47,276 nt of DNA. Source: an uncultured Clostridia bacterium (lineage in GTDB: Bacteria > Bacillota > Clostridia > Christensenellales > Aristaeellaceae). The notes below the pieces were generated by a model. The model saw nothing but the letters and a program-made list of their open reading frames with translations, did not search any database and was not told the DNA's origin. Position numbers and translations under genes: made by a program. The stretch is from contig CAMKJS010000018.1 of NCBI GenBank assembly GCA_946413245.1, positions 1-47,276 of the forward strand, in the 5' to 3' direction. Below, one piece after another: positions 44,856 through 47,276 of the stretch (its first letter is position 1; each line of letters opens with the position of its first letter).

Positions 44856-46307
44856 TCAGCCCAGTTTGCGCAGGCTTTCGCCGAGGCGGCGGAGCGTTTC
44901 TTCCTTTCCGAGGAGGTACGCGATCTCAAAGGCGCCGCCGGGGGTGGATTCCTGTCCGGAAATGGCGATGCGCATGGGCCAGAGCACGGTGCCGTTCTTC
45001 TTGCCCCACTCCTGGATCTTCGCGATGACCGTGTCGTGGATATTCTGCTCGGTCCAGTCCTCAATGCCCTCCAGCACGGGAATCAGCAGGGGGAGAACCT
45101 CCCGGGCCGTATTCTCGTCACTCTTCTGCTTCTTGTTGAAGAAGATGGCGGTATCGTATTCCGGCATTTCCGCCAGGAAGGCGATCTTCTCCGGAATACG
45201 GCTGAAGATGTCCGTGCGGCTCTGCATGAGCTCCGCCAGGCGGCGGTAATCCATCCCTTTGCCGGCAAGAACCTGATCGAACCACGGGGTTGCCATGGCC
45301 AGATACTGTTCGAAGTCCATCTTCGCGACGTACTGGCTGTTCATCCACTCCAGCTTGTTGACGTCAAAAATGCCGGGGGAGTTGTTGATCCGATGGATGT
45401 CGAAGGCTTCCACCAGCTCCGGCAGGGTGAAGAATTCCCGGTCCGTGCCGGGATTCCAGCCCACCAGCGCCAGATAGTTGATCAGCGCTTCGGTCAGGAA
45501 GCCCTTTTCGATATAATCGGAATAATAGGCGTCCCCGTCCCGCTTGGAGAGCTTGTGAGTGGCGTCCCGCATGACCGTGGGCAGATGAATATAGGTCGGG
45601 ATCTCCCAGCCCAGGGCGGTGTAGAGGTAGTTGTACCGGGGCGTGGAGGAAAGGTATTCCATGCCGCGCATCACATGGGTGATGCCCATCAGATGGTCGT
45701 CGATGACGTTGGCGAAGTTGTAGGTGGGCATTCCGTCCTGCTTGATGAGAACCATGTCGTCCATGGACTCAGCGTTTTTGAAAGTCATGTCGCCGAAAAC
45801 CACGTCGCTGTAGCTGGTTTCGCCCTCCGTCGGCGCGTTCATGCGGATGGTGTACGGGATGCCGGCGGCCTTCTTCGCGGCGATCTCTTCAGGGGAAAGA
45901 TGCAGGCAGTGCTTGTCGTATTTCCAGGTGCCGCCGGCGGCTTCCACTTTCGCCTTCCGCTCCTCGATCTCCTCCTTGGAGCAGAAGCAGTAATAGGCGT
46001 GACCGGACTGCACCAGCTGCTCGGCGTAGGGGAGATAGGTGGATTTGCGCTCGGACTGGATATAGGGGCCGCAAGGGCCGCCGATGTCGGGGCCTTCGTC
46101 CCAGTTCAGGCCGCAGGCGCGGAGCGTGTCGTAGATGACCTCGGTGGCGCCTTCGACGAAGCGCTCCTGGTCGGTATCCTCAATCCGCAGGATGAAGCTG
46201 CCGCCATTCTGTTTGGCATAAAGGTAGGCGTAGAGGGCGGTGCGAACGCCGCCCAGGTGCATAAAGCCCGTGGGGCTGGGGGCAAAACGGGTGCGAACCT
46301 GTGACAT
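44856..46307 (-). CDS. gltX: Glutamate-tRNA ligase
   Basis: A 483-residue class I aminoacyl-tRNA synthetase that charges tRNA-Glu. The HIGH-type motif is in F-A-P-S-P-T-G-F-M-H-L-G-G (8-20) and the KMSKS-type motif in H-K-L-S-K-R-D-G-D-A-Y. I-R-M-N and Y-N-F-A-N-V-I-D-D-H-L-M-G match GluRS. The C-terminal anticodon-binding helices are present and the length is normal. The ATG follows GGAGG. It lies 170 bp downstream of glnS; the gap holds a structured element rather than a standard terminator. A distinct GlnRS is encoded just upstream, so this enzyme probably need not be non-discriminating. Confidence 0.97.
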   Translation of the reverse strand: MSQVRTRFAPSPTGFMHLGGVRTALYAYLYAKQNGGSFILRIEDTDQERFVEGATEVIYDTLRACGLNWDEGPDIGGPCGPYIQSERKSTYLPYAEQLVQSGHAYYCFCSKEEIEERKAKVEAAGGTWKYDKHCLHLSPEEIAAKKAAGIPYTIRMNAPTEGETSYSDVVFGDMTFKNAESMDDMVLIKQDGMPTYNFANVIDDHLMGITHVMRGMEYLSSTPRYNYLYTALGWEIPTYIHLPTVMRDATHKLSKRDGDAYYSDYIEKGFLTEALINYLALVGWNPGTDREFFTLPELVEAFDIHRINNSPGIFDVNKLEWMNSQYVAKMDFEQYLAMATPWFDQVLAGKGMDYRRLAELMQSRTDIFSRIPEKIAFLAEMPEYDTAIFFNKKQKSDENTAREVLPLLIPVLEGIEDWTEQNIHDTVIAKIQEWGKKNGTVLWPMRIAISGQESTPGGAFEIAYLLGKEETLRRLGESLRKLG

Positions 46308-46336: not shown

Positions 46337-46465
46337 AAGGGGGCTTTCCGATCGATCCGCAACCTCAACAGTCGCAATTCCCCACAGGGGAATTTGCTCC
46401 TTTTCGGTTGAGCTCGCAGCTGACAAGACTACCGCCACTGGCGGTTGTCAGCTGTTCGCCCCCTT
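46337..46465 (-). other. Highly structured element between glnS and gltX
   Basis: AAGGGGGC (46337-46344) and GCCCCCTT (46458-46465) close a 129-bp element. Inside are two domains. One is CAGCTGACAA/TTGTCAGCTG (46417-46426 and 46445-46454) with an inner CCGCC/GGCGG. The other is CTCAAC/GTTGAG (46364-46369 and 46407-46412) around a perfect AATTCCCC/GGGGAATT hairpin (46376-46383 and 46387-46394). The arrangement resembles a multibranched RNA. It has no start-stop frame of note and no clear T-run. It could be a regulatory leader for gltX, a processed spacer RNA or a palindromic mobile repeat. I do not recognise it as a known riboswitch or T-box. Confidence 0.6.
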
Positions 46466-46477
46466 AGACCTCTTCGG

Positions 46478-47276
46478 TCATTTAGTTAATTTTGCAAAGG
46501 TGTCCCGCAGGCCGACGGTGCGGTTGTACACCGGCAGGGCGTCGGTGGAGTCGGGATCCTTGCAGAAATATCCGACCCGCAGGAACTGGAAGGACGCTCC
46601 GGTCTCCGCGCCGGCGATCACCTTCTCGGCATAGCCGCGGCAGACCTTCAGGCTTTCCGGATTCAGGCGGGAGATAAAGTCTTTCTTGTCCGCTTCGGCC
46701 TGCTCGTCGTCCAGATCGTCGTTCAGCAGGGGATCATAGAGCCGGGCTTCGAAGGGAATGCAGGCGTCCGCGGGCACCCAGTGCAGGGTTTTGCCCTTGA
46801 TTTTCCGGTCCGCTCCGGCGCTGCCGGAGAAGGAATCAAGATCCACGGTGCAGTGCACCTCGGTGACGTTCCCGTCCGCATCCTTCACGCAGCTGTCGCA
46901 GCGGACGATGTAGGCGCCCTTCAGCCGGACCTCGTTCCCGGGGAACATGCGCTGGTACTTCTTGACCGGAACCTCCATGAAGTCTTCCCGGTCGATCCAG
47001 ATCTCCCGGCCGAAGGGAATCACGCGCTCGCCCATTTCGGGATGGTTCGGGTGATTCTCCAGGGTCACGTCCTTCGTTTCGCCTTCGGGCCAGTTGGTGA
47101 GCACCACTTTCAGGGGATTCAGCACGGCCATGGCCCGGGGAGCGGTATCCCCCAGCACGTCGCGCACGCAGTGCTCCAGCACCGCGTAATCCACGACGGA
47201 ATCCGCCTTGCTCATGCCGATGGTGTCCACAAAGTTCCGGATGGCCATGGCGGGATAGCCGCGGCGGCGCATGGCG
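46478..47276 (-). CDS. glnS: Glutamine-tRNA ligase, 3' part
   Basis: The last 265 codons or so of glutaminyl-tRNA synthetase, running off the window end. The visible part covers the end of the catalytic domain (G-Y-P-A-M-A-I-R-N-F-V-D-T-I-G) and the two beta-barrel anticodon-binding domains. Landmarks are V-L-N-P-L-K-V-V-L-T-N-W-P-E-G, F-G-R-E-I-W-I-D-R-E-D-F, K-G-K-T-L-H-W-V-P and F-Q-F-L-R-V-G-Y-F-C-K-D. The start and the HIGH and KMSKS motifs lie outside. Its presence beside gltX shows direct charging of tRNA-Gln in this organism. The stop TGA is at 46480-46478. Confidence 0.96.
   Translation of the reverse strand, partial: AMRRRGYPAMAIRNFVDTIGMSKADSVVDYAVLEHCVRDVLGDTAPRAMAVLNPLKVVLTNWPEGETKDVTLENHPNHPEMGERVIPFGREIWIDREDFMEVPVKKYQRMFPGNEVRLKGAYIVRCDSCVKDADGNVTEVHCTVDLDSFSGSAGADRKIKGKTLHWVPADACIPFEARLYDPLLNDDLDDEQAEADKKDFISRLNPESLKVCRGYAEKVIAGAETGASFQFLRVGYFCKDPDSTDALPVYNRTVGLRDTFAKLTK

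Follow-up and report, generated by a model that had tools for sequence, protein, structure and literature searches.

A probably mobile structured repeat of about 107 nt nested in a small hairpin between glnS and gltX of an uncultured Clostridia bacterium

The gap between glnS and gltX in an uncultured Clostridia bacterium holds a strongly folded patch, and the question it raises is whether this patch serves the two synthetase genes as a regulatory RNA or has arrived there as a mobile repeat. In the window (the whole 47,276-nt stretch of DNA that was analysed) 170 bp separate the 3' end of glnS (46478) from gltX. A sequence-only reading had placed in this gap an element at 46337-46465 with an 8-bp closing stem, a 10-bp stem plus inner stem, and a 6-bp stem around a perfect 8-bp hairpin; gap, element and stems are all present as claimed. 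The transcript (minus) strand of the patch has a folding energy of -74.3 kcal/mol, whereas that of 200 shuffles is -51.7 +/- 3.9 (z -5.8, with no shuffle as good), and the plus strand gives z -4.3. The features of the locus are:

44856-46307, minus strand: gltX, the downstream cistron (Pfam PF00749 and PF19269)
46478-47276, minus strand: 3' part of glnS, the upstream cistron (Pfam PF03950 and PF20974), with its stop codon at 46480-46478
46337-46465, minus strand (the transcript strand): structured patch, from its fold and stems
46355-46461, minus strand, sense being the transcript strand: 107-nt dispersed structured repeat, positions 1-107 of the covariance model R1 (113.8 bits, E 1.9e-22)
46412-46459, minus strand: domain A, from the fold and the family covariation of helices 1 and 2
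46454-46445 with 46426-46417, minus strand: basal helix of domain A, from the fold
46459-46458 with 46413-46412, minus strand: two extra pairs of domain A, beyond a tandem G.A and an A.C mismatch
46444-46432, minus strand: tip hairpin of domain A, CCGCCAGTGGCGG; the domain also has a 5-nt 3' bulge
46360-46410, minus strand: domain B, from the fold (helices 3 and 4)
46410-46406 with 46364-46360, minus strand: outer helix of domain B, CAACC/GGTTG
within 46360-46410, minus strand: inner hairpin of domain B, around AATTCCCC-TGT-GGGGAATT, from the fold
46458-46465, minus strand: 5' arm of the outer hairpin of the small repeat, AAGGGGGC
46337-46344, minus strand: 3' arm of the same hairpin, GCCCCCTT
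46345-46354, minus strand: remaining interrupted loop of the small repeat, CGATCGGAAA

The patch is composite, a 107-nt unit nested inside a small hairpin repeat. It had been described as a single 129-bp element; the structure so described stands, whereas its unity does not, as the 107-nt unit recurs across the genome and the outer 8-bp stem belongs to the other, small repeat. The feature is considered, with a probability of roughly 0.8, to be a mobile structured interspersed repeat of about 102-107 bp inserted in the loop of the small hairpin between glnS and gltX. Across the 107-nt unit, CGATC (46354-46350) and CGAAC (46458-46454) are alike in 4 of 5 bases and constitute a possible target duplication. 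The small repeat, GGGCGATCGGAAAGCCC, occurs 16 times without mismatch in the window's genome and at 29 places when up to two mismatches are allowed, the reversed-pattern control giving none; six of the 29, the window copy included, are right-hand remnants of a hairpin split by the 107-nt unit. The glnS-gltX gap of a relative whose gltX is 92% identical (L035) contains only an intact small hairpin, GCGGGGGCGATCGGAAGCTCCCGC. A more distant relative (L071, gltX 74% identical) also carries the small hairpin repeat between the two genes, with CCGAAGG before it and a GC-rich companion hairpin after it.

By gltX, the nearest relatives are MAGs of Clostridia, most of them from ruminants; 80 of their gltX loci were fetched, and R1 finds the 107-nt unit in none of the 70 that were searched. 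A glnS match lies upstream of gltX in 73 of the 80, at a distance of at most 63 nt in 45 of these and of more than 500 nt in nine. The insertion at glnS-gltX is evidently not common to the relatives sampled, from which the genomes nearest this one may be missing.

Elsewhere the unit is abundant. The window's genome (3.23 Mb in 134 contigs, 78.6% complete) gives 28 matches at E<0.01 in a DNA search, window copy included; R1 was built from 28 copies, one of them that of the window (G000:C18:46355-46461, also L125), and returns 36 own-genome copies at E<1e-6, three of which form a tandem array with a period of 103 nt on contig C4. In a search with R1 all 45 genus genomes carry the unit, at 1 to 43 copies each. 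The family sample has matches at E<=0.001 in 57 of 250 genomes and 15 of 50 genera, strong in genus g30 (to about 1e-22) and weak in several other genera (about 1e-4), and in the class sample of 341 genomes the sole match at E<=1e-5 is the window's own genome; both large searches used strict filters under which weak relatives may be missed. Among the genomes sampled, the unit is confined to one Clostridia family; it is dispersed, with sites that differ between species. The copies fetched for further analysis are mostly the best-scoring ones and not the full set. Open-access titles and some abstracts hold no description recognised as this 107-nt repeat, and the family is apparently undescribed so far. 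In L156, L172, L173, L174 and L210 identical unit cores have common flanks (ATGGACGGCTGTARCAT before, AGGYATT after), which suggests that the unit also travels within a larger repeat. L020 (reverse strand, about 1712) and L030 (reverse strand, about 1504) combine a B-like domain with a different upstream fold, and by this resemblance they are a related repeat with another A domain.

The dispersed copies carry a strong record of compensatory change. In the alignment of the first 28 copies (A1), which was not aligned to the model, 27 of 37 pairs show two-sided changes; in the alignment of 99 distinct copies (A2) the figure is 30 of 37 with 92.8% of cells paired, counts that lean towards the model as A2 was aligned to R1. 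None of 500 shuffles reaches the covariation of A2, and slid registers score far lower. Helices 3 and 4 of domain B are paired in 95-99% of cells, with two-sided changes in 11 of 17 pairs in A1 and 12 of 17 in A2. These patterns show that both domains of the unit are kept folded by compensatory changes. Of 128 distinct copies, 86 have G.A/A.G at the tandem position in the basal helix and 30 have two Watson-Crick pairs there; exchange of tandem G.A with Watson-Crick pairs is as expected of an RNA motif, and tandem G.A can form in DNA too. Mismatches read on the sense strand are G.T in 35 cases and A.C in 14 when each cluster and pair is counted once over 28 clusters (p 0.004), or 41 and 16 in the raw count; both counts omit two X pairs (13 A.C and 2 G.T cells), whose inclusion gives 43 against 29, and all of these counts omit the lower pairs (model 3-6). 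The G.T excess favours selection on the sense RNA, with strand-biased mutation as an alternative cause.

These results bear on the view that the patch acts in cis, as a regulatory RNA or an attenuator that belongs to the glnS-gltX operon alone. Its place on the transcript strand between both genes and its very stable fold would suit such a role; however, the unit is missing from the 70 gltX loci of relatives searched, 45 of the 73 gaps behind a glnS match measure at most 63 nt, it stands at dozens of unrelated loci, and there is no U-tract 3' of the fold, which leaves this explanation very remote. A locus-specific riboswitch or T-box was also considered and rejected, as there is no Rfam match and the relatives lack the unit. 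Rfam 15 at curated thresholds gives no match over the whole window, only two sub-threshold scores (14.8 and 14.5 bits) on the element, and only tRNA and rRNA matches on 20 copy loci. The earlier proposals for this gap were a regulatory RNA, a processed spacer or a palindromic mobile repeat. The tie to two related synthetases is not supported, and the option of a palindromic mobile repeat is borne out by the many copies at unrelated loci and by the unit's absence from the relatives' loci searched; the statement that the element is neither a T-box nor a known riboswitch holds as far as Rfam goes, no family reaching threshold. On the suggested covariation check, compensatory change is strong, but among dispersed copies. 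As the covariation is seen across dispersed copies, it is at the level of the family, and not at glnS-gltX, that the fold is conserved.

The settings of 139 copies were classed by simple codon-model gene calling, with the partial hits L157, L192 and L238 and repeat views omitted, and with two loci, L244 and L245, outside one of the searches feeding this set. Both neighbours share the orientation of the unit in 45 copies, 21 are antisense to both, 13 lie between converging and 4 between diverging genes, 3 are inside genes (one of them, L183, by a frame of weak score, 20, which may be spurious), and for 53 at least one side has no gene called within 250 nt. The stop codon of the upstream gene falls within the first 14 nt of the unit in 24 copies; when the 21 stop-overlapping cases are taken out of the sense class, 24 sense copies stand against 21 antisense ones without a clear orientation bias, which speaks against a general mRNA role.

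By gene end, the 24 stop-overlap copies comprise 13 with KG-stop (a motif we take to be typical of sugar ABC permeases), 3 FGGY kinases, 2 with VRYMDGI/VRYLDGI, a GMP synthase and a similar end (L154), an amino-acid kinase, and 3 singles. Pfam supports PF02782 in L153 (FGGY kinase), PF00958 in L142 (GMP synthase) and PF00696 in L111 (amino-acid kinase); the gene in L127 whose stop is overlapped by the unit is a phage-type major capsid protein (PF09950), and the gene end in L159 is closely similar. Filled and unfilled sites can be compared for two of these genes. At the 3' end of the FGGY kinase (30 of 40 matches fetched) the unit is present in 5 of 30 loci (L330, L335, L342, L344, L346); no unit match is found at the stop codon in 22 of the 30, L351 has a weak match (34 bits) on the other strand and further on, and L337, L339 and L340 resemble deletion scars. 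At guaA (30 of 34 matches fetched) the unit lies across the stop codon in 3 of 30 loci (L360, L375 and L389, the last weak at 72 bits), and L371 and L372 have a unit match further downstream. The left flanks of L143, L148 and L155 hold a guaA end, AGTGGGAATGA, beside the units after sequence that is not GuaA-like, as if these were the far ends of islands integrated at guaA.

Copies are also found within reading frames. A 1107-aa frame in the window's genome, GH3-like by motif, contains the unit in frame as 34 added residues (102 nt), directly followed by an Fn3-like domain (PF14310); 29 other aligned rows of orthologues, from 27 distinct sites, are without the insert. A peptide search finds more copies in long open frames, among the matches listed those of 869, 938 and 1013 aa. 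In L152, L162, L183, L184 and L243 (about 1500-1610) the unit is followed by CAGGGGTTCGAYTCCCCT, which resembles a tRNA T-arm, and most of these units are preceded by a CAATGCGAAGCATTG-like hairpin; ARAGORN finds no tRNA or tmRNA at the element in these five loci, a tRNA-Ala gene lies 100-360 nt away in L162 and L243, and the T-arm-like sequence may mark an integrated island, as a duplicated 3' end of a tRNA.

Some of these settings would suit a multi-copy operon module, that is, an mRNA-processing or stabilising stem-loop that tunes the ratio of cistrons, for example sugar permease versus binding protein. Among 13 sampled copies that start at a KG-stop end, the next frame has a signal-peptide-like start in 10, and the next gene in L112, the one case examined, encodes a solute-binding protein (PF01547); the FGGY copies of three species keep their pairing although their arms differ. 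Stem-loops are reported, in the accessible part of the source, to set the stoichiometry of ABC importers in cellulolytic Clostridia (PMC9045158). Set against this are the absence of the unit from most FGGY and guaA loci fetched, the three apparent deletion scars, the copy inside a gene, the 21 of 139 copies antisense to both neighbours, and a null Pfam result on a 100-aa piece of the permease-like gene of L112. A role of this kind is possible but not the favoured explanation, and it is compatible with a mobile repeat, the two not being exclusive.

The stop-codon copies reveal a further property of the unit. They were defined as copies into which the same-strand upstream gene extends by 6 to 14 nt, with only within-gene positions counted and with larger overlaps, of which there are at least four (L010, L122, L212, L219), excluded. 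In these 24 copies the 3' arm of the element matches 97% of native positions by Watson-Crick, G-U or tandem G.A pairing, against 60% +/- 4% in an arm-swap control (maximum 74% in 2000 shuffles); without tandem G.A the values are 81% against 48% +/- 4% (maximum 60%). When one copy is taken from each of the seven gene-end groups, 96-98% are matched in three draws against a maximum of 69% over 1854 derangements. The native origin of the stem positions rests on unfilled orthologues for FGGY and guaA and is assumed for the other genes. The FGGY copies of three species, L115, L153 and L158, pair at 10, 9 and 10 of 10 native positions through their differing arms. For this subset, the comparison indicates that the stem is completed from the host, its 5' strand coming from the end of the upstream gene and pairing with the complementary 3' arm of the element.

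How the arm comes to match its host gene is a separate matter. Copies whose B-stems are 0-5% apart have arms that differ by 19%, those 5-10% apart by 33%, with a plateau near 37%; the arms are nevertheless paired at 97.5% of positions despite this divergence between copies. One tentative proposal, which we consider rather doubtful, is that the element builds half of its stem from the target, the facing arm being either a guide that chooses the site or a strand rewritten from it. This would explain the fast divergence of arms that stay 97.5% paired, together with arms that match WDNN-stop, IEWE-stop and VRYMDGI-stop ends. Compensatory mutation, slow or fast, and reshuffling of the A and B domains are possible alternatives; reshuffling between copies is seen, for example, in L151 and L214, and explains part of the arm divergence, though not by itself an arm matched to a particular gene end. 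If the arm does arise at insertion, the unit would be a small element with target choice or integration through base pairing.

Flanking direct repeats were tested against chance on copies with a located 3' end; for the 69-site and by-class tests, tandem and near-duplicate sites were removed as well. With the register fixed at GG over 134 copies, the flanking repeat averages 3.45 of 13 against 3.32 +/- 0.10, without average excess; with a free offset over 69 sites, flanking repeats are weakly positive (p 0.036 to <0.002 in four settings). The signal is above chance only in the non-CGAA class: 22 such sites have a mean match of 4.09 against 3.22 +/- 0.20 (0 of 2000 shuffles), with at least 5 nt in 6 of 22, one of which (L122) has its repeat from a tandem partner where the contig ends, whereas the 47 CGAA sites average 3.32 against 3.17 (p 0.09). 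Short flanking direct repeats are seen, for example, in L139, L145, L155 and L159. L137 (G000:C5:12270-12376) has a 15-nt flanking direct repeat, GGATGAAGATCTTTC, which is not generalised to other copies; its tandem neighbour L135 is nearly identical to it outside the basal stem and bulge. A classical MITE would have terminal inverted repeats in common with an insertion sequence, and a target site duplication; in A1 the ends of the unit (GGG.., ..GCGG) are not mutual inverted repeats, and a target site duplication is possible in view of the flanks.

Two known kinds of mobiliser were considered. REPs and REPINs are palindromes scattered through genomes, with a possible action as RNA hairpins, and the unit could be a REP/REPIN mobilised by a RAYT transposase, being itself palindromic and dispersed in a genus where 28 of 45 genomes have Y1/RAYT transposases. 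These genes, however, do not follow copy number: G014, G015 and G018 have 17, 33 and 20 copies and no Y1 match, in assemblies that are incomplete. R1 has no match at any of 15 picked Y1/RAYT loci, and mobilisation by RAYT is considered unlikely. The six such loci that were read (L315-L318, L321, L324) carry other flanking sequences, mostly short inverted repeats, for example around GACAAGGGGACGGTTCTTTTGTC, that probably make up a distinct REP system of this genus. An equally improbable origin is a SINE-type, retroelement-like RNA moved by a reverse transcriptase, with which the structure, the sense-strand G.T excess and the variable-length flanking repeats of some copies would agree; RVT_1, the one family that the search covered, is present in 14 of 45 genus genomes but is not found in the high-copy genomes G001, G002, G021 and G032 (34-43 copies).

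For the mobile structured repeat that we favour, the following course is proposed. The unit would have been moved by transposition of some kind, and the form under selection is likely to be its sense RNA. Co-transcribed copies would form tight folds in mRNA, which may change decay, processing or read-through, and copies would persist where harm is small; at glnS-gltX its effect is probably no more than an additional stable fold in the shared transcript. A little-known group of rumen bacteria thereby gains an abundant, well-folded repeat family, and a false lead on glnS-gltX regulation is removed, while the stop-codon copies provide natural pairs of filled and empty orthologues for studying the effects of an inserted fold on operon expression.

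In behaviour, the basis on which they are compared here, the unit resembles the ERIC, RPE and BOX repeats. A REP measures 20-40 bp and is tagged at one end by GTAG or CGTC, whereas the unit is 107 nt and two-domain with CGTC inside a stem and no terminal GTAG in A1, and no searched RAYT locus carries it. CGTC-tagged repeats among the GTAG/CGTC repeats are described as lacking a dedicated transposase, with palindromes that may act as RNA hairpins (PMC3733652, as far as its accessible text goes). ERIC/IRU sequences are 127 bp, palindromic and co-transcribed, with an orientation-dependent effect on upstream mRNA, and RPE are structured repeats of 105-146 bp that occur both intergenically and, fused in frame, within conserved protein genes (PMC2229807, in the part available). 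The unit is similar to ERIC/IRU in length, palindromic character and co-transcription with its neighbours; it differs in having two unlike hairpin domains where ERIC has one long palindrome, in showing no TA ends, and in its host-matched basal stem. Its in-frame insertion in a protein gene, verified for one GH3-like gene, recalls RPE, although host group and fold are different and no 12-bp terminal inverted repeat is seen; the GH3-like insert of 102 nt is a multiple of three, and copies one base longer (A1) would shift the frame. BOX of Streptococcus pneumoniae, likewise modular, structured and found at gene 3' ends, overlaps coding sequences at the gene 3' end in 36 of 58 cases, with BOX giving the stop codon, and the accessible text on it mentions no matching of an arm to the host gene (PMC3049150). 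Effects on mRNA, in-frame insertion, stop codons given by the repeat and the lack of a dedicated transposase are thus all on record among ERIC, RPE, BOX and GTAG/CGTC repeats, as far as the accessible portions of these sources describe them (PMC2229807, PMC3049150, PMC3733652). Compared with ERIC, RPE and BOX by their descriptions, the host-matched arm is the new part of this repeat.
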